Assembly: GCF_019312585.1 (NCBI RefSeq)
Contig: NZ_JAHWDP010000001.1
Coordinates: forward strand, 1-64,000
Direction of reading: 5' to 3'
Length of the DNA stretch: 64,000 nucleotides
Source of the DNA: Halomarinibacterium sedimenti
Lineage (GTDB): Bacteria; Bacteroidota; Bacteroidia; Flavobacteriales; Flavobacteriaceae
The position numbers were made by a program, and so were the translations under genes. A model generated the notes under the pieces. It did no database searches. It was not told where the DNA came from and saw only the letters and a list, made by a program, of their open reading frames with translations. Numbering within the stretch: the stretch's first letter is position 1; every line of letters starts with the position of its first letter. Below are positions 52,707-59,914 of the stretch, piece by piece.

Positions 52707-52754
52707 ATACCCAGTATTGGTGATACATTTACTTTAAAATTGTTACCATCTTTA
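52707..52754 (+). promoter_or_regulatory. Operator copy A and promoter of the kinase operon
   Basis: 18-bp dyad ATACCCAGTATTGGTGAT (52707-52724), then exactly 22 bp to the -7-like CATCTTTA (52747-52754). Same arrangement as copies B (57796) and C (59013). Likely binding site of the NarL-type regulator, acting where the -33 contact would be supplemented. Confidence 0.6.
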
Positions 52755-52791
52755 CTTGCACAACAAATTGTACTAATTAAAATCTAAAAAA

Positions 52792-53415
52792 ATGATACCA
52801 ATTGATGAAAACTTTTTAAGCAACTTAAACCTAGCATCTAATAAACCACAATTTATTCAATCCGGTCAGGTTTATGATTCCACCTATGGCATATATGGAA
52901 GCTTTGAAATGAATGATGAAGGAAACATTTCGGAAATTAACTTATCCGTTATTAATTATAAAGGGATCCTAGAGTTAGAATTTGATAATGAATTTATTTC
53001 TAATTGTAGTTTAGTACGCCAAGAAAATGAAAATGGGGTATATATAATAGTACTTACTACCCAATTAAGAGCTTCAGTTAGCGGAGAAACAGCACCAACA
53101 GCCACTGTAAGCTTGGACAAGTCTATGGAAGGTTTTAAAAATATTGGTTCGGAGGATTCTATTTATTTGGTGGTGGAACGAAAATTAGCTCCTATTTGGG
53201 GATGTAAAACCAAAAACCCATTTAAAAATGGTGTTTTTGATAACGAATTCTTTTACAGAGATGGAAACAGGTATTTACCAAGAGCGGTGAAAACAATTCC
53301 AGACACTGCCTATTTTAGTGACTTTAGAGTGGTTAATCCAGATTCTCCAGCCGAAATTTTAGGATTTAAGCCTGGTTTTAAATGTAGAAACTCAACTTTG
53401 TTTGTATTACGTTAA
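52792..53415 (+). CDS. Hypothetical protein, first gene of the two-component operon
   Basis: 207 aa, no signal peptide or membrane segment, family not recognised. It is beta-rich, with an Asn/Ser/Glu-rich N-terminal half and a GCKTKNPFKNGVFDNEFFYRDG stretch (given in part) in the second half. It lies directly downstream of operator A, and the first kinase starts 1 bp after its stop, so it is co-expressed with the kinases. A role as signal or output partner is possible but unproven. Confidence 0.72.
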   Translation: MIPIDENFLSNLNLASNKPQFIQSGQVYDSTYGIYGSFEMNDEGNISEINLSVINYKGILELEFDNEFISNCSLVRQENENGVYIIVLTTQLRASVSGETAPTATVSLDKSMEGFKNIGSEDSIYLVVERKLAPIWGCKTKNPFKNGVFDNEFFYRDGNRYLPRAVKTIPDTAYFSDFRVVNPDSPAEILGFKPGFKCRNSTLFVLR

Positions 53416-53416
53416 T

Positions 53417-55291
53417 TTGAAGCCCATTTTACTTTTACTTATCACCTTCTATTCTTCCACTTATATTCTTAAGGGGCAGGAAGAACTTTATCAAAATGTG
53501 TTATTAAAAGAAATAGTGGCCCATAATTTTTCTAAGGCTAAAATAGATGTCCACTCAATAGAAGATATTACGTTAAAAAATTCGTTTGGCAACTTAATAC
53601 AAGTAATGGAGCACAGAGGACAAATGCAAAAGGTAGATTCTATTTTGGTTTCAAAAATAAAGTTAGAGAATAATTCAAAAATAATATCCATTTTAAATAA
53701 TCTAACACTAGGATTTTATACTTTAAATAATGAAACCAATAATTTCCAAGGGATAGAATATTTTAATAAAGCCTATACACTCTCTAAGGAATTTAACAAC
53801 AAGGAATTATTAAAACTAAGTCTTATAGGAATTATAGAATTGTATACATTGCAAGTGGTTCATTCTACCGATTCTTATAAAGAATATATTTTAGAGCTGA
53901 CAAATGTAGCCGAAAATGATATGGACCGTGCCCTAGCAAGCTTTTATGAAAATAGCTTTTATGCCAACTCTATACACTCTCCTAAGGATTTTTTTGAAAC
54001 CTCAAAAAATTTAATACAAATTACAAATCAAACCCAACTTAGTCCAGCGTTACAAGGGAGGTTCTATGAAGACATAGCGGTATATTATAGGGTCATTAAC
54101 CATAAAGATAGTGCCTACTACTATAATCAACAGATACTGCTCCTTCCAGAAAGCAATTATAATAATAAAACAAAATGCTATGCTTTATATGAATTAGCAA
54201 ACCTTGCGGCAACACAACAAGAGGCAAAACAAGCAAAGGACTATTTAGCTCAAGCCAAAAAATACTTCAATAAATCCAATTATGCTCATTCACAATACTC
54301 CTGGGAAAAATGGAAGGCACAATATGTACACGAGCCTTTAAAAGAATATGACAGTGCTTATTATCTTCTAGAAAAAGCAATGGTTTATGAAGCGAATAAA
54401 GATTTCAAATCCAACGAGGAAAAAATTTCACAACTAAATATTGAATTACAAACCGCCGAAAAAGAAAAGCAAATCCTTATTGAGCAACAGCAAAAAAAAC
54501 AAAATAGAAACATTGCAATAGGGCTTGCTGGTGGCCTGATAGGCGTAACTATTTTTGCGTTACTTATTTATAAAAACACCAAACGGAAGCAACGTATAGC
54601 CGAGCAGGAAAAGGAATTAGAGATTCAGAAAAAAGAAAAAATATTAAAAGACCAAGAATTGAACGCTATAGACGCAATGATTGCCGGGCAGGAAAAGGAA
54701 CGTGTACGACTCGCAAGCGACTTACACGATAGCGTAGGTGCTACCTTAACTGCTGCGAAACTTCAATTTGAACATCTTTCAAAAAACAAGGATAAACTGG
54801 GAACCATGGATGAGTTCTTCAATAAAACTGGCATTTTATTAGACAAAGCCTACACTGAGGTTCGTTCCATGGCACATCTAAAAAATAGCGGAGTAATTGC
54901 CAAAAAAGGATTGCTTCCTGCCATTACAACTTTAGCTAAAAACGCTTCAGTCACGGGGCAATTAAACATTGAAGTACAAGATTTTGGGTTTGATGAAAGG
55001 CTTGATAGTATGATGGAGATTACTATTTTTAGAATTATCCAAGAACTGGTTACTAACATTATAAAGCATTCTGAAGCTTCCGAAGCAAATATCTCTCTTA
55101 CACAACATAAAGAGATGCTAAGTATTATTGTGGAGGATAACGGAAAAGGGTTCGATACTCGAAAAGTGAATTCAAAAGAGGGCATGGGACTTTCAACAAT
55201 CGAAAAGCGAATAGAACATCTTGAAGGAACTCTTGAAGTAGATAGTACTCCAAAAAAGGGAACTAGTATATTAATTGAAATACCTATATGA
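53417..55291 (+). CDS. TPR-containing sensor histidine kinase (HisKA_3 type), copy 1
   Basis: I start at TTG 53417, giving 624 aa beginning (M)KPILLLLITFYSSTYILKGQ, a signal-like segment; no ATG lies near, and a TTG at 53402 would overlap the previous gene. A periplasmic TPR-like region (about 30-330), a coiled coil, one transmembrane helix (about 365-385) and a second coiled coil lead to the DHp domain with phospho-His in LASDLHDSVGAT (about 436), then a HATPase domain (ISLTQHKEMLSIIVEDNGKG, GMGLSTIEKRIEHLEGTLEV). It overlaps the regulator gene by 4 bp (ATGA). Confidence 0.9.
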   Translation: MKPILLLLITFYSSTYILKGQEELYQNVLLKEIVAHNFSKAKIDVHSIEDITLKNSFGNLIQVMEHRGQMQKVDSILVSKIKLENNSKIISILNNLTLGFYTLNNETNNFQGIEYFNKAYTLSKEFNNKELLKLSLIGIIELYTLQVVHSTDSYKEYILELTNVAENDMDRALASFYENSFYANSIHSPKDFFETSKNLIQITNQTQLSPALQGRFYEDIAVYYRVINHKDSAYYYNQQILLLPESNYNNKTKCYALYELANLAATQQEAKQAKDYLAQAKKYFNKSNYAHSQYSWEKWKAQYVHEPLKEYDSAYYLLEKAMVYEANKDFKSNEEKISQLNIELQTAEKEKQILIEQQQKKQNRNIAIGLAGGLIGVTIFALLIYKNTKRKQRIAEQEKELEIQKKEKILKDQELNAIDAMIAGQEKERVRLASDLHDSVGATLTAAKLQFEHLSKNKDKLGTMDEFFNKTGILLDKAYTEVRSMAHLKNSGVIAKKGLLPAITTLAKNASVTGQLNIEVQDFGFDERLDSMMEITIFRIIQELVTNIIKHSEASEANISLTQHKEMLSIIVEDNGKGFDTRKVNSKEGMGLSTIEKRIEHLEGTLEVDSTPKKGTSILIEIPI

Positions 55292-55914
55292 TAACACTAG
55301 CGATAGCAGAAGATCATCAATCACTTGTAGATGGCATTACCTTGCTTTTAAAATACGAAGAGCATATAGAAATTGTAGGAATGGCAAATGACGGTGAAGC
55401 ACTATGGGAAATTGTACAACGAAAACAACCTAAAGTAGTGCTAACCGATATTAAAATGCCAAAAATGGATGGTATTGTGGCTACTAAGCTTATTAAAAAA
55501 CAATTTCCACATACCAAAATAATCGCATTTTCCATGTTCGATCAAGAAGAAGCTGTAAGCCAGATGATAGAGGCCGGTGCATCGGGATATTTATTAAAAA
55601 ACTCTCCACTTGAAGAGGTATTAAGAGCCATTGAAACAGTTGCAAAAGGCGGTGAATTTTTTGATTCTTCTCTAAATATTGAAGCCATTAAAGAAGGAGC
55701 TCTTTCTACCAATAAAAAACCGTTACTTTCAAAAAGCGAGCAAGAAATTTTAAAACTAATAGGCGAAGGGAAGTCAACCAGTGAAATTGCCAATATTCGA
55801 TTTACTGCCGTGTCGACAGTAGAAAAACACCGGAAAAACATGATACACAAATTGGGGTTAAATGGTAAAGGAGAGTTACTTCGATATGCGCTTGAAAAAA
55901 AATATGATTTTTAA
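55288..55914 (+). CDS. NarL/FixJ-family response regulator
   Basis: 208 aa. Receiver domain (about 1-120) with acidic pocket IAEDH, phospho-Asp54 in LTDIKMPKMDG and Lys in YLLKNSP; LuxR-type HTH (about 140-205, LSKSEQEILKLIGEGKSTSE, VSTVEKHRKNMIHKL). It is sandwiched between two paralogous kinases and translationally coupled to the first. The repeated 18-bp dyads in this neighbourhood are its most likely targets. Confidence 0.93.
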   Translation: MITLAIAEDHQSLVDGITLLLKYEEHIEIVGMANDGEALWEIVQRKQPKVVLTDIKMPKMDGIVATKLIKKQFPHTKIIAFSMFDQEEAVSQMIEAGASGYLLKNSPLEEVLRAIETVAKGGEFFDSSLNIEAIKEGALSTNKKPLLSKSEQEILKLIGEGKSTSEIANIRFTAVSTVEKHRKNMIHKLGLNGKGELLRYALEKKYDF

Positions 55915-55921
55915 ATAATCT

Positions 55922-57793
55922 ATGAAAATAAAAATAGCATTTGCAATAACTATTCTATTAGGAATAAGTTCATTTAGTCAAACTCAAAAAGATTCTTTAC
56001 TTAGAATTTGGAAAAACACATCTATTGCGGATAGTTTAAGAGCTAATGCTTTAAGCAATTTAATCTTCAATGAATACCAATATAAAAAACCCGACAGCGC
56101 ACTACTTTTAATAGAAAATCTTGAAAATTTTATACAAGCAAAGAAACTAGTTAAGCATCAAGCCGATGCACTCATTTTGAAAGGGAATGTATTTACGGTT
56201 AATGGAGACAATCTTAAGGCCATTGAATATTACCAAAAAGCTTTAAAAAATTACGAAACGTTTCATGATTCTAAGGGAATTACAACAGCACTTAACAATA
56301 TTGGCCGTGTCTATAAATCAATTTGGAACTTCGACAAGGCTCTGGACTACTATAATAGAAGTTTACAAATAGCCATCGCAATTAATGATAAAACTTCGCA
56401 ATCAAGAGCATTGGTAAATATTGGGAATATTTACAATGACAAATTTAAGATGGATGAAGCGTTGACTTATTATACCAAAAGTTTAGAATTAAATTTAGAA
56501 CTTAATGATAAAGTAGGAGAATCTATTACCCTTCAAAACATAGGTCTTAACTATACAAAAAGAAAGGAGTATGACAAGGCTTTAGACTATTTTATGCAAA
56601 GTCTTTCTATAAGTGAAGCCCTTAATGATTATTATTCGCAATCTAATAATCTCATTGCCATTGCTCAATTATATTATACTCAAAAAAATTATCCTCAATT
56701 AATTAAGTACAGCAACAAGGCGCTTGAGGCGGCAGAGAAAGTAAACAGCATTCAGCTTCAAAACAGAGCAAATTTCTTTCTCTATCAAGGTTATAAGGCT
56801 TTAAATAATTTTACCAAAGCCCTGTACCATCATGAAGAATCGATCAAATTTTTGGATAGCCTTAATATTGCAGAAACTGAAAAAAGAATTCAAGAAATAG
56901 AGTTTGAAAAACAACGAAGTACAGATAGTATTATTAATCAGCAAAACGCCTTAAAACAAAAACTAGTTTTTGACCAAGAAATTGAAATAAAAAAAAGAGA
57001 AAATAAAATTATCCTTATCGCATTTACCGGAATTTTTATCCTTATTTCATTTATTGCATACCTAATTTACACAAGAGTTAAACGTCAACAACGCATTTTA
57101 GAACAGGAGAAAGAGTTAGAAATTCAGAAAAAAGAAAAACTGCTTAAAGAACAAGAGCTTTCTACAATTGATGCTATGCTTGAAGGACAGGAAAAAGAAC
57201 GAAAAAGACTTGCCATGGATTTGCACGATAGTATAGGAGCAACTTTGTCTGCTGTAAAACTACAATTCAACCACCTAGCAAAAAATAAAGATCAAATCCT
57301 AGAAATGGAAGATCTTTTTTATAAAACAAGTACTTTAATCGATCAAGCCTATGCCGAAGTTCGCTCTATATCTCACCTAAAATATAGTGGCGTCATGGCA
57401 AAAGAGGGGTTACTTCCAGCTATTTACTCACTTGCAAAAAATGCTTCGGCACAGGGAACATTAAAAATTGAAGTTCAAGACTTTGGGGTAACTCATATCT
57501 TTGATGCAACCACCGAAGTAGCTATTTTTAGAATTATTCAAGAATTAATCACCAATATTATAAAGCATTCTCATGCAGCCGAGGCTAATATTTCGTTAAC
57601 ACAACACAAAATGATGCTAACCATTATGGTAGAAGATAATGGCATTGGCTTTAACAAGAAAACAATTTATTCTAAAAAAGGAATGGGGCTTTCTAGTGTT
57701 GAAAAACGTATTGAACACATGGATGGAACATTGGATATCGATAGTACTCCAGGAAAAGGAACCACCATTATTATCGAATTACCTTTAAAATAA
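55922..57793 (+). CDS. TPR-containing sensor histidine kinase, copy 2
   Basis: 623 aa. Signal peptide (about 1-19, ISSFSQ), clear TPR array (about 70-300: DNLKAIEYYQKALKNY, DKALDYYNRSLQIAI, DEALTYYTKSLELN), coiled coil, transmembrane helix (about 362-383), coiled coil, DHp with LAMDLHDSIGAT (His about 435) and HATPase domain. The cytoplasmic half closely resembles copy 1 (EKELEIQKKEK, then HSG/YSG VMAKEGLLPAI), while the sensor half is diverged. A duplication gives two inputs to one regulator. The gap to the regulator is 7 bp. Confidence 0.92.
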   Translation: MKIKIAFAITILLGISSFSQTQKDSLLRIWKNTSIADSLRANALSNLIFNEYQYKKPDSALLLIENLENFIQAKKLVKHQADALILKGNVFTVNGDNLKAIEYYQKALKNYETFHDSKGITTALNNIGRVYKSIWNFDKALDYYNRSLQIAIAINDKTSQSRALVNIGNIYNDKFKMDEALTYYTKSLELNLELNDKVGESITLQNIGLNYTKRKEYDKALDYFMQSLSISEALNDYYSQSNNLIAIAQLYYTQKNYPQLIKYSNKALEAAEKVNSIQLQNRANFFLYQGYKALNNFTKALYHHEESIKFLDSLNIAETEKRIQEIEFEKQRSTDSIINQQNALKQKLVFDQEIEIKKRENKIILIAFTGIFILISFIAYLIYTRVKRQQRILEQEKELEIQKKEKLLKEQELSTIDAMLEGQEKERKRLAMDLHDSIGATLSAVKLQFNHLAKNKDQILEMEDLFYKTSTLIDQAYAEVRSISHLKYSGVMAKEGLLPAIYSLAKNASAQGTLKIEVQDFGVTHIFDATTEVAIFRIIQELITNIIKHSHAAEANISLTQHKMMLTIMVEDNGIGFNKKTIYSKKGMGLSSVEKRIEHMDGTLDIDSTPGKGTTIIIELPLK

Positions 57794-57795
57794 AT

Positions 57796-57843
57796 ATCCC
57801 CTCTATCGGGTATTTTATGAAAGGAGTTGTAAATCTATTTTTA
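57796..57843 (+). promoter_or_regulatory. Operator copy B and promoter of the Gly-linker lipoprotein
   Basis: ATCCCCTCTATCGGGTAT (57796-57813), 22 bp, then TATTTTTA (57836-57843). Adjacent GTTGTAAA/TTTACAAC arms (57826-57848) add a hairpin around the -7 region. Placed 27 bp before the ATG at 57870. Confidence 0.6.
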
Positions 57844-57869
57844 CAACAACTAAAATAAAATACACTATC

Positions 57870-58943
57870 ATGAAAACATTAAAACTCCTTACTCTTTTTA
57901 CAATATTCTTCACACTTATTGCATGTGAAAAAGAAGAAGAAACAGAACCCGAAGTAGAAATTGAGGTAAATGAAACTTCAATTATTCCATCATCTACTTC
58001 AGGAAGACCCAACAATTATCTAGGCTGTATTGAAATTTCAAGCCGTATCACTACAATTCAAGTTTGGGATCACGGTCAAATAGATGGTGATATTGTTTCT
58101 ATCATTGCAAACGGAAACACCATCATTAATCAACAAACTTTAGATGGTCCAAGCAATCCAATTACCGTGGACTACGACTTCACCAACAATGGATTTAACT
58201 ATATTACATTATTTGCGCATAATTTAGGAGATATCCCTCCCAACACGTGTACCATTGCAATAAATGGGGTTCAATTTGTATTAGAAGCAAATCTAGACGC
58301 CAATGGATCTATTGATGTTATTGTTACTGGTTACGGTGTAGATTGTTCAGATGCCGGAGGTAATGGAGGAGGTAATGGCGGTGGCGGCAATGGTAACGAT
58401 ACAGGCTCGTTAATATTTTATGTAGGTGAAGATTTAGGGTGTGGTCCCATTAGTGTAAACCTTTCCAGTGTGGGTAGTGATACTATTACTGGTTATTATA
58501 GCTCAACTCCAGACTGTGGGGCAAGTGCAGGAGCAAATTTTAGTAATCTCGACCCAGGGGTATATTCCTATACTGCGTCTTGTTCTGGAATAGATTGGAG
58601 TGGAACTGTCACCATTGAAGCAAACACATGTTTAAGACAACAATTACTTCCAGGCTCCGGTGGCGGAGGTGGTGGAGGAAGTGGCACAGGAGATGTAAAA
58701 TTCTGGATTAATCAAGACTTTGGTTGCGGTAATATCTCGGTTAATGTAACAAGTGTTGGTAGTTCAACTATCTCTGGATACTTCCCTTATGCTCCTAGTT
58801 GTGATAATTCTGCAGCTGGAGGAAACTTTAATAATTTAACTCCTGGGACCTATTCCTATAATGCGAGTTGTAATGGATATACTTGGCAAGGTAACTTTAC
58901 GGTAGTAGAAGATCAATGCCTACAATTTCAATTATCGCTTTAG
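57870..58943 (+). CDS. Secreted lipoprotein with two tandem Cys-containing domains
   Basis: 357 aa. Lipobox TLIAC (about residue 19) and an acidic linker, an N-terminal domain (about 45-160), then two Gly-rich linkers each followed by a repeat: about 180-256 (GSLIFYVGEDLGCGPISVNL ... CLRQQL) and 274-355 (GDVKFWINQDFGCGNISVNV ... CLQFQL). Each repeat has four Cys at matching places, likely disulphide-bonded. Family not recognised. Its own copy of the operator suggests it is an output of the kinase system. Terminator follows. Confidence 0.8.
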   Translation: MKTLKLLTLFTIFFTLIACEKEEETEPEVEIEVNETSIIPSSTSGRPNNYLGCIEISSRITTIQVWDHGQIDGDIVSIIANGNTIINQQTLDGPSNPITVDYDFTNNGFNYITLFAHNLGDIPPNTCTIAINGVQFVLEANLDANGSIDVIVTGYGVDCSDAGGNGGGNGGGGNGNDTGSLIFYVGEDLGCGPISVNLSSVGSDTITGYYSSTPDCGASAGANFSNLDPGVYSYTASCSGIDWSGTVTIEANTCLRQQLLPGSGGGGGGGSGTGDVKFWINQDFGCGNISVNVTSVGSSTISGYFPYAPSCDNSAAGGNFNNLTPGTYSYNASCNGYTWQGNFTVVEDQCLQFQLSL

Positions 58944-58980
58944 TTCTATTTGAACTAATTATTAACTAACCAAGTTTGAG

Positions 58981-59007
58981 AAAGCCCCTTTTTGGGGCTT
59001 TTTTTAT
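58981..59007 (+). terminator. Terminator after the lipoprotein gene
   Basis: AAAGCCCC, T5 loop, GGGGCTTTTTTT: 8-bp stem with a long T-run. Confidence 0.85.
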
Positions 59008-59012
59008 TCAAT

Positions 59013-59060
59013 ATACCCTGTATTGGGTATTGATAGAAGACAATTGTTTACTCATCTTTA
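59013..59060 (+). promoter_or_regulatory. Operator copy C and promoter
   Basis: Perfect dyad ATACCCTGTATTGGGTAT (59013-59030), 22 bp, then CATCTTTA (59053-59060). Same geometry as copies A and B. Transcription would start near 59067, 158 bp before the next ATG. Confidence 0.6.
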
Positions 59061-59066
59061 ACCTAA

Positions 59067-59145
59067 CAATGAAACGTTGTTTTAGGTTGTAGTTTGTTGT
59101 AAAAATAGCCTCCTTAGAAGAGGAGCTAAGGGGGTTATTTTAATT
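59067..59145 (+). ncRNA. Candidate small RNA or attenuated leader
   Basis: The predicted transcript from operator C begins here. A hairpin built from AACCTAACAA and TTGTTTTAGGTT-type arms (about 59060-59088) is followed by a 16-bp stem AAAATAGCCTCCTTAG (59101-59116) / CTAAGGGGGTTATTTT (59125-59140), then T-rich sequence. That could end a ~78-nt RNA or attenuate the gene at 59225. A dispersed REP-like palindrome is an alternative reading of the second stem. Confidence 0.3.
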
Positions 59146-59224
59146 TTTATCTTAAGTTATCATTTCGAAACTAAACCACAATACGTATATTTAAAGTGAA
59201 TTAACTAACTAAACCATTTAAAAA

Positions 59225-59914
59225 ATGAAAAAAAAATTAACATCCCTCACCATTTTAATGACTATTTGTTTTCTAACTCTTACAACAATAGAGGCTGCTG
59301 CCGAAGTTGTTGGCGGAAAAAAAGTTACCATTGGAGTATCTCAATCTGATGCAGAAATTTGGGTAAACGGTAAAATGGTTGCCAAAGGCTCAACCGAAAT
59401 TAAAGTTGAAAAAAATTCTTGTGCCAATATATCCATTCGTAAAGTAGGCTTCTTAGAAGAGCAACTGGAGATTTGTAATAACAAAACTAGTATTTGGGAA
59501 AAGTCTAAATACTTCGAAATGAAGCGTGACGATTCCTATGATGCTTCAATCCAAACCGATATTGCCAATGTGGATATTGAGCTAATTGTAAATACCATGG
59601 ACAAGGACACTGCTTGGAAATTAATTAATCAAATTGTCTTAAATTATATAGATGTCATTGAGATGACCGATAAAGAAACGGGGTATTTGAGAACAGCTTG
59701 GTCCTTAAAAGCATTTAAGCAAAATACGGTAAGAACCCGAATTATCGTGAAAGAATCTTCTACAGATCCATTAGTATTTAAAGCAAAACTTATAAGTGAA
59801 TTTTCTGGTTCTGCATTAACAAGTGTAAAAGCAGATGAGTTATATAAAGAATGGGACCGTGTACTTCGTTCTTACTCTGATGTGATTTCAGAATTTCAAG
59901 CGCGTGTAAAATAA
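59225..59914 (+). CDS. Exported PEGA-like protein of unknown function
   Basis: 229 aa with a signal peptide (about 1-26, TTIEAAAE). Residues about 30-85 look like a PEGA-type beta domain (AEIWVNGKMVAKGSTEIKVE, SIRKVGFLEEQLEI). The rest (about 95-229) is alpha/beta and unrecognised, with KDTAWKLINQIVLNYIDVIE and VRTRIIVKESS. It lies downstream of operator C, so it may belong to the kinase regulon, unless the intervening hairpin ends the transcript. Confidence 0.75.
   Translation: MKKKLTSLTILMTICFLTLTTIEAAAEVVGGKKVTIGVSQSDAEIWVNGKMVAKGSTEIKVEKNSCANISIRKVGFLEEQLEICNNKTSIWEKSKYFEMKRDDSYDASIQTDIANVDIELIVNTMDKDTAWKLINQIVLNYIDVIEMTDKETGYLRTAWSLKAFKQNTVRTRIIVKESSTDPLVFKAKLISEFSGSALTSVKADELYKEWDRVLRSYSDVISEFQARVK

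Follow-up and report, generated by a model that had tools for sequence, protein, structure and literature searches.

In a 64,000-nucleotide (nt) stretch of the Halomarinibacterium sedimenti genome (Flavobacteriaceae; contig NZ_JAHWDP010000001.1, positions 1 to 64,000; hereafter the window), three copies of an 18-base-pair (bp) dyad lie around an operon that encodes two sensor kinases and a NarL/VraR-type response regulator. We consider it very likely, on the strength of sequence comparisons, that the regulator encoded at 55288 has the dyad as its operator; from there it would activate promoters placed 22 bp downstream and so control its own operon, an exported lipoprotein and a candidate small RNA. 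Direct reading confirmed both the coordinates and the gap of exactly 22 bp between dyad and -7-like box that the initial annotation of this DNA had given for all three sites:

52707-52724, forward strand: operator 1, ATACCCAGTATTGGTGAT, preceding the sensor-regulator operon (putative autoregulation); based on direct reading, pattern counts and orthologous upstream sites.
52747-52754, forward strand: -7 box CATCTTTA of promoter 1, 22 bp past the dyad; start predicted near 52759, by analogy with the available part of PMC9723704.
57796-57813, forward strand: operator 2, ATCCCCTCTATCGGGTAT; read directly, and the window site that fits the strict family-wide pattern.
57836-57843, forward strand: -7 box TATTTTTA of promoter 2; start predicted near 57848.
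59013-59030, forward strand: operator 3, ATACCCTGTATTGGGTAT; based on direct reading and pattern counts.
59053-59060, forward strand: -7 box CATCTTTA of promoter 3; start predicted near 59065.
55288-55914, forward strand: NarL/VraR-type response regulator, the proposed dyad binder; receiver and LuxR-type helix-turn-helix (HTH) domains, with Response_reg and GerE above cut-off.

Within the window, the dyad pattern (at most three mismatches) occurs at these three places only, which gives six strand-wise matches against 0.72 expected from shuffles, and none of the shuffled windows reached six. Across the genome (2,957,540 bases in 15 contigs), the composite ATMCCCNNTATYGGKKAT-N22-YATYTTTA matched three times on the forward strand and never on the reverse strand, with no control matches, and all three matches are the window sites. 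This composite was derived from those very sites, and its informative part is the lack of further sites and of control matches.

Composites of the same form recur in other members of the family. In its strict version (ATMCCC-N6-GGGKAT-N22-TANNTTTR) the composite gave 118 matches in 66 of 299 sampled family genomes, as compared with one match for the reversed control. In an order-wide sample it occurred in 16 of 76 genomes of the family, a set that partly overlaps the first sample, and in 3 of 319 genomes from outside the family, so the element belongs largely to the Flavobacteriaceae. Only site 2 of the window fits the strict pattern; the boxes of sites 1 and 3 begin with C, and in site 1 the right half of the dyad is imperfect as well. 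Orthologs of the regulator, defined by an expectation value (E) of at most 1e-50, are present in 64 of the 299 genomes, and a strict site was found in 45 of these 64 genomes but in only 21 of the 235 others (Fisher p = 2e-22; our Fisher tests count related genomes as independent). Marinirhabdus gelatinilytica and Patiriisocius marinus are two relatives that have both the regulator and sites. Sixty-one of the 64 ortholog loci were read at length, and there the conservation beside orthologous operons expected by the initial annotation was borne out, with at least one relaxed site in 45 of the 61 loci and a site just after the regulator gene in 30.

For 40 ortholog loci, TAnnTTTR lies at 22 bp for 42 of 178 relaxed dyads and for at most three at any other distance up to 59 bp; for 61 loci, the box lies at 22 bp for 58 of 288 dyads, while other distances average 0.7 and reach a maximum of 5 (at 54 bp). 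A position table of 142 sites, which were chosen by that form, shows inverted heptamers that are separated by 2 bp and have TACCC/GGGTA at their ends. Because the fixed spacing, the co-occurrence with the regulator and the 7-2-7 form known for NarL all fit, we read the dyad as a probable activator site of the 55288 regulator, in agreement with the initial annotation, which had taken the constant spacing as the mark of a functional activator site and had named this NarL-type regulator as the candidate. Half-site base 3 also varies with one residue of the recognition helix, C-type half-sites making up 2 of 42 with Lys and 33 of 84 with Thr (p = 1.7e-5, uncorrected for relatedness). Since the Lys and Thr classes follow related groups, this covariation is support, not proof, for the regulator as the binder. 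In two genomes that have no ortholog at E ≤ 1e-50, G095 (seven sites, e.g. L266 and L289-L294) and G297, several sites follow the sub-motif ATACCCTCnnnAGGGTAT.

The geometry suggests how the promoters could work. In Flavobacterium psychrophilum the TAnnTTTG box was placed at -12 to -5 (PMC9723704, available part); by analogy, transcription should start 5 nt after the box, not 7, and the dyad would occupy -52 to -35. The phosphorylated regulator, responding to a presumed signal, would bind the dyad as a dimer centred near -43.5 and would activate sigma-A promoters that have a -7 box 22 bp downstream and no conserved -33 element; in the 142 sites, we found no conserved -33 TTTG in the spacer, and spacer positions 19-23 are 56-77% T. 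Promoter 1 would then provide weak positive autoregulation of the sensor-regulator operon, promoter 2 would activate the exported lipoprotein, and promoter 3 would activate a small RNA of ~80 nt at 59065-59146. The proposed weakness of promoter 1 is suggested by its box: the form CAnnTTTR was found at 14 of 19 sites upstream of the regulator gene versus 1 of 55 downstream (p = 3.5e-10, uncorrected for relatedness; sites with at most three mismatches from -4500 to +7000 relative to the gene, chance matches such as that of L193 included), and in the simplest reading the C at box position 1 would make the promoter of the regulatory operon itself a weaker one.

The third site precedes two features that compete as its target:

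59065-59146, forward strand: candidate small RNA of ~80 nt, terminating in a 16-pair hairpin (59102-59141) whose loop contains GAGGAG; fold z = -4.45.
59225-59914, forward strand: PEGA-like exported protein of 229 amino acids, with TATATTTA at 59186-59193 and no dyad.

All the small-RNA and product counts come from sites in the loci that we read. We compared 142 distinct sites that are followed by 250 nt or more of sequence: an open reading frame (ORF) starts within 65 nt of 92 sites (ORF-type sites, mostly 20-37 nt ahead of an ATG) but not of the other 50 (orphan sites). A terminator-like hairpin starts within 150 nt of 22 of the 50 orphan sites versus 4 of the 92 ORF-type sites, and shuffled orphan sequences (20 rounds) gave a mean of 1.25 such matches and a maximum of 3; orphan sites thus seem to define candidate small RNAs, while some of the predicted terminators may instead be those of the gene before the site or of a convergent one. 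Together with L256 and L257, these amount to 24 candidates, 12 of them at 71-85 nt, two shorter and 10 at 109-154 nt. GGGG or GAGGAG is exposed in 14 of the 24 candidates versus 2 of the 92 ORF-type leaders; L256 and L257, which we added to the candidates by hand, were also still counted with the 92 ORF-type sites, where they may account for the two positives. The terminator rule and the G-rich motif are our own, and the motif was picked after viewing the sequences. The set includes two same-genus pairs (L264 and L280; L212 and L275). GAGGAG in the loop is common to the window candidate, L123 and L268, and two genomes each contain two candidates that share a G-rich core as judged by eye (L113 and L199; L118 and L180). 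In L212, L217 and L275, an ATCCCC-type operator is predicted to drive transcripts that terminate at another such palindrome, ATCCCC-N6-GGGGAT, with T after it, and one sequence form may serve there as both operator and terminator.

In the window itself, a scan for terminator-like hairpins gave 6 matches, including that of the small RNA, versus 4.7 in shuffles, and for this reason the match alone proves little. No Rfam family reached its gathering score in the window stretch (four weaker matches) or in six loci (no match). We also considered the 59102-59141 hairpin as a dispersed repeat and rejected this, as it has a single match in the genome at up to three mismatches. DNA matches to the window small RNA (E ≤ 0.01) were found in 43 of 299 genomes including its own; all are short, and about two dozen fall on the last 30 nt. 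The six of these last matches that were read are coding sequence, which we take to be a SusC-type transporter motif. Window positions 59118-59145, the 3' arm of the candidate, resemble the coding strand of that conserved motif with one mismatch, matches with up to two mismatches being expected 0.22 times in the window. The two matches seen to the motif pattern recurred in 1 of 100 shuffles, but the pattern was chosen post hoc, and we count it neither way. The 5' arm could be partly complementary to messenger RNAs of such transporters.

The initial annotation had left the third target as either the PEGA-like protein or a small RNA, and of these a short RNA is the more likely product. The alternative, in which the PEGA-like gene is transcribed from site 3 with a leader of 160 nt and the hairpin is a leaky attenuator with no small RNA made, remains a serious competitor that we nevertheless rate as doubtful. 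Homologs of the PEGA-like gene in L192 and L195 do have their own sites 29 and 23 nt before the ATG, and the tail after the hairpin, TTATTTTAATTTTT, does not consist of T alone. In the window, however, the gene has its own TATATTTA box at the usual distance, 31 nt before the ATG, and since this box has no dyad the gene is probably outside direct control. Moreover, the 16-pair hairpin stands between site 3 and the gene, and the size and G-rich loop of the window RNA match those of other candidates.

Several observations weigh against the element or the reading proposed for it. First, the dyad alone (at most three mismatches) is not enriched genome-wide, with 16 forward and 28 reverse matches versus 14 and 24 for the reversed control. 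The initial assumption that the site is not frequent at random places holds for the composite, which is absent elsewhere in the genome; the loose dyad is at chance level (44 versus 38 control matches) and was dropped as evidence, and only the combination of dyad, spacing and -7 box is specific. Outside the window the dyad-alone list has 33 places, and in the loci obtained for 21 of them a box lies at 22 bp from one oriented copy only (L016, with a broken right half). Second, T occupies box position 1 at 5 of the 19 upstream sites, and the sole downstream site with a C-type box is the window's own site 3. Third, a DNA search found no alignable homolog of the window small RNA beyond short stretches, and G001, the one further genome of the genus that was compared (79% complete), matches the locus over no more than 27 nt. 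Fourth, the strict site is missing in 19 of the 64 ortholog-bearing genomes and present in 21 of the 235 genomes without an ortholog at E ≤ 1e-50. One of these 21, G113, has a truncated ortholog adjoining a site; G055, G095 and G185 also have sites and no ortholog. A diverged full-length regulator was looked for and not found, as the best full-length matches listed are 31-40% identical in 19 of the 21, the same as in controls, and G161 has no full-length match among those listed.

These last genomes raise the question of whether the dyad is the operator of another LuxR-type protein, such as an HTH-only paralog of 126 amino acids or a different NarL-type regulator, with the 55288 gene linked by neighbourhood only. 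HTH-only proteins directly follow a site in L028 (the same place as L204; likewise, L030 is the same place as L202) and in L260, and an HTH-only LuxR-type protein is present in 2 of the 21 genomes, G064 and G274, whose sites it perhaps explains. As a general substitute regulator it was rejected, being confined to these 2 of 21. The window genome contains no HTH-only protein at E ≤ 1e-12 (14 of 25 candidates scored), the sites co-occur strongly with the full regulator, and the half-sites vary with its recognition helix; we thus regard another binder as unlikely. With the 55288 regulator retained as the probable binder, it is still less likely that it represses from the dyad. The dyad does overlap the region expected for a -33 element, but its distance from the downstream -7 box is constant, and the spacer between them contains no conserved -33 TTTG; activator sites usually lie at a fixed distance from promoters without a -33 element, and repressor sites usually vary in position. 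On the other side, NarL-type regulators are able to activate or to repress (PMC4549865, available part). Least plausible of all is that the dyads are RNA hairpins acting as weak intrinsic terminators of the preceding gene rather than DNA operators: T-richness after many dyads, the frequent position just after the regulator gene and the terminator-like hairpins formed by the palindrome in L212, L217 and L275 would suit it, but a terminator needs neither the fixed 22-bp gap nor the conserved ATACCC/GGGTAT letters, the pre-operon sites in the window, L192, L210, L215, L217 and L227 begin 80-127 bp past the preceding ORF, and most ORF-type sites are followed by an ATG after 20-37 nt.

The remaining genes of the window locus are as follows:

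52792-53415, forward strand: first operon gene, 207 amino acids; no Pfam match, with divergent homologs (14-28% identity) ahead of the kinase in relatives.
53402-55291, forward strand: sensor kinase 1; HisKA_3 and HATPase_c.
55922-57793, forward strand: sensor kinase 2; TPR, HisKA_3 and HATPase_c, 41% identical to kinase 1.
57870-58943, forward strand: lipoprotein-like exported protein of 357 amino acids, downstream of operator 2.

The regulator reached no named NCBIfam equivalog, the best scores being MctR at 176.6 bits (cut-off 300), NarL at 104 (250) and the GacA group at 102.5 (280); the solved structures nearest to it by sequence are VraR (2e-31), DesR (2e-24) and NarL (2e-22). It lies between two kinases (53402-57793) that are 41% identical, and the second kinase may have arisen by duplication, adding another input. 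Of 46 maps (44 distinct loci), only that of the window shows a regulator between two kinases on the same strand; in L213 two kinases precede the regulator. A domain scan of the window proteins revealed no protease-like gene in the operon.

The regulon looks local in the window genome, as the initial annotation held, but not in the relatives. In at least six relatives, the homolog of the window lipoprotein has a site of its own 23-31 nt ahead of its start, whereas the homolog in L193 has none, and in L192 and L195 both the lipoprotein and the PEGA-like homologs carry their own sites. Many products next to sites are exported or lipoprotein-like, as judged by eye from their N-termini. Gene size and order indicate an islet with conserved flanks and variable content. 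The operon or islet of relatives contains trypsin-like genes in L190, L194, L205, L215, L219, L220, L222, L223, L227 and L228; the ten aligned proteins have an invariant His and GDSG, and three of four scanned match Trypsin_2, all below its cut-off. Papain-like genes score above cut-off in L226 and L260 and just under it in L196 and L214, and that in L221 was recognized by eye only. In L229 the gene after a site encodes a caspase-domain protein, and a small membrane protein of ~110 amino acids accompanies the protease-like genes in several loci. These exchangeable protease-like genes presumably resemble the gene sets of conflict systems. From a 62- to a 678-amino-acid gene, the syntenic islet of L260 (in G274) shows neither a kinase nor a full-length regulator; it retains three dyad sites together with genes for an HTH-only LuxR-type protein, a papain-like protease and a CHASE2 protein.

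From the 48-bp promoter form, the regulator, its targets and the start sites can be predicted for 55 of the 236 genera sampled, and these predictions are directly testable. A broader view, which we offer as a speculation with the balance against it, is a family-wide Flavobacteriaceae regulon in which one NarL-type regulator with fixed geometry co-activates exchangeable exported proteins and proteases together with G-rich small RNAs (half of them 71-85 nt), as an independently arisen counterpart of Gac/Rsm whose own operon is kept at low output through repeated replacement of T by C in the -7 box. A real small-RNA class would mean that, in this group, an ordinary two-component system is connected with small RNAs. 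Among the papers listed by text searches, which covered neither subscription journals nor preprints, did not use the operator letters and in one case listed 10 of 102 papers, no title or abstract opening describes such a small-RNA link or this operon; the finding is likely, though not certainly, new in print.

Primary sigma-factor promoters of Bacteroidota have TAnnTTTG at -7 and TTTG at -33 (PMC7366714 and PMC9723704, available parts); the available part of PMC7366714 reports no -33 TTTG found in F. johnsoniae. The promoters described here have a -7 box of the same form and differ in having no conserved -33 TTTG and mostly a C at box position 1 upstream of the regulator.

Like NarL of Escherichia coli, which belongs to a different phylum and works with a different sigma factor from those of the window host, the window regulator combines a receiver with a LuxR-type HTH; its recognition helix reads TVEKHRKN, and that of NarL reads TVKVHVKH. 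TACCC-N6-GGGTA is the form of an engineered NarL 7-2-7 palindrome, TACCCCTAAAGGGGTA, and the positions of NarL action are -40 to -49 at napF and -38 to -47 at yeaR (PMC4549865, available part); the dyad shares this form and the same 16-bp frame and, by analogy, an activation position of about -43. Unlike the NarL regulon, the present one has one fixed site per promoter, and no nitrate genes were noticed among the products of site-bearing genes. It also differs from VraR and DesR, as its operator is NarL-like and no cell-wall or desaturase genes were noticed among the products.

The kinase of the Gac system is a GacS-type hybrid kinase, whereas both window kinases are of the HisKA_3 type and have no receiver domain match, and the system here would also drive exported proteins. 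The candidate RNAs usually have one G-rich motif, not the several GGA motifs of GacA-controlled RNAs, which titrate RsmA/CsrA. GacA binds TGTAAG-N6-CTTACA upstream of rsmY and rsmZ, small RNAs with exposed purine motifs (PMC4950607, available part), and its half-site differs from ours and its sites lie farther upstream. If the predicted small RNAs are made, the two systems would share the arrangement of a NarL-type regulator with an 18-bp 6-6-6 dyad upstream of small RNAs.

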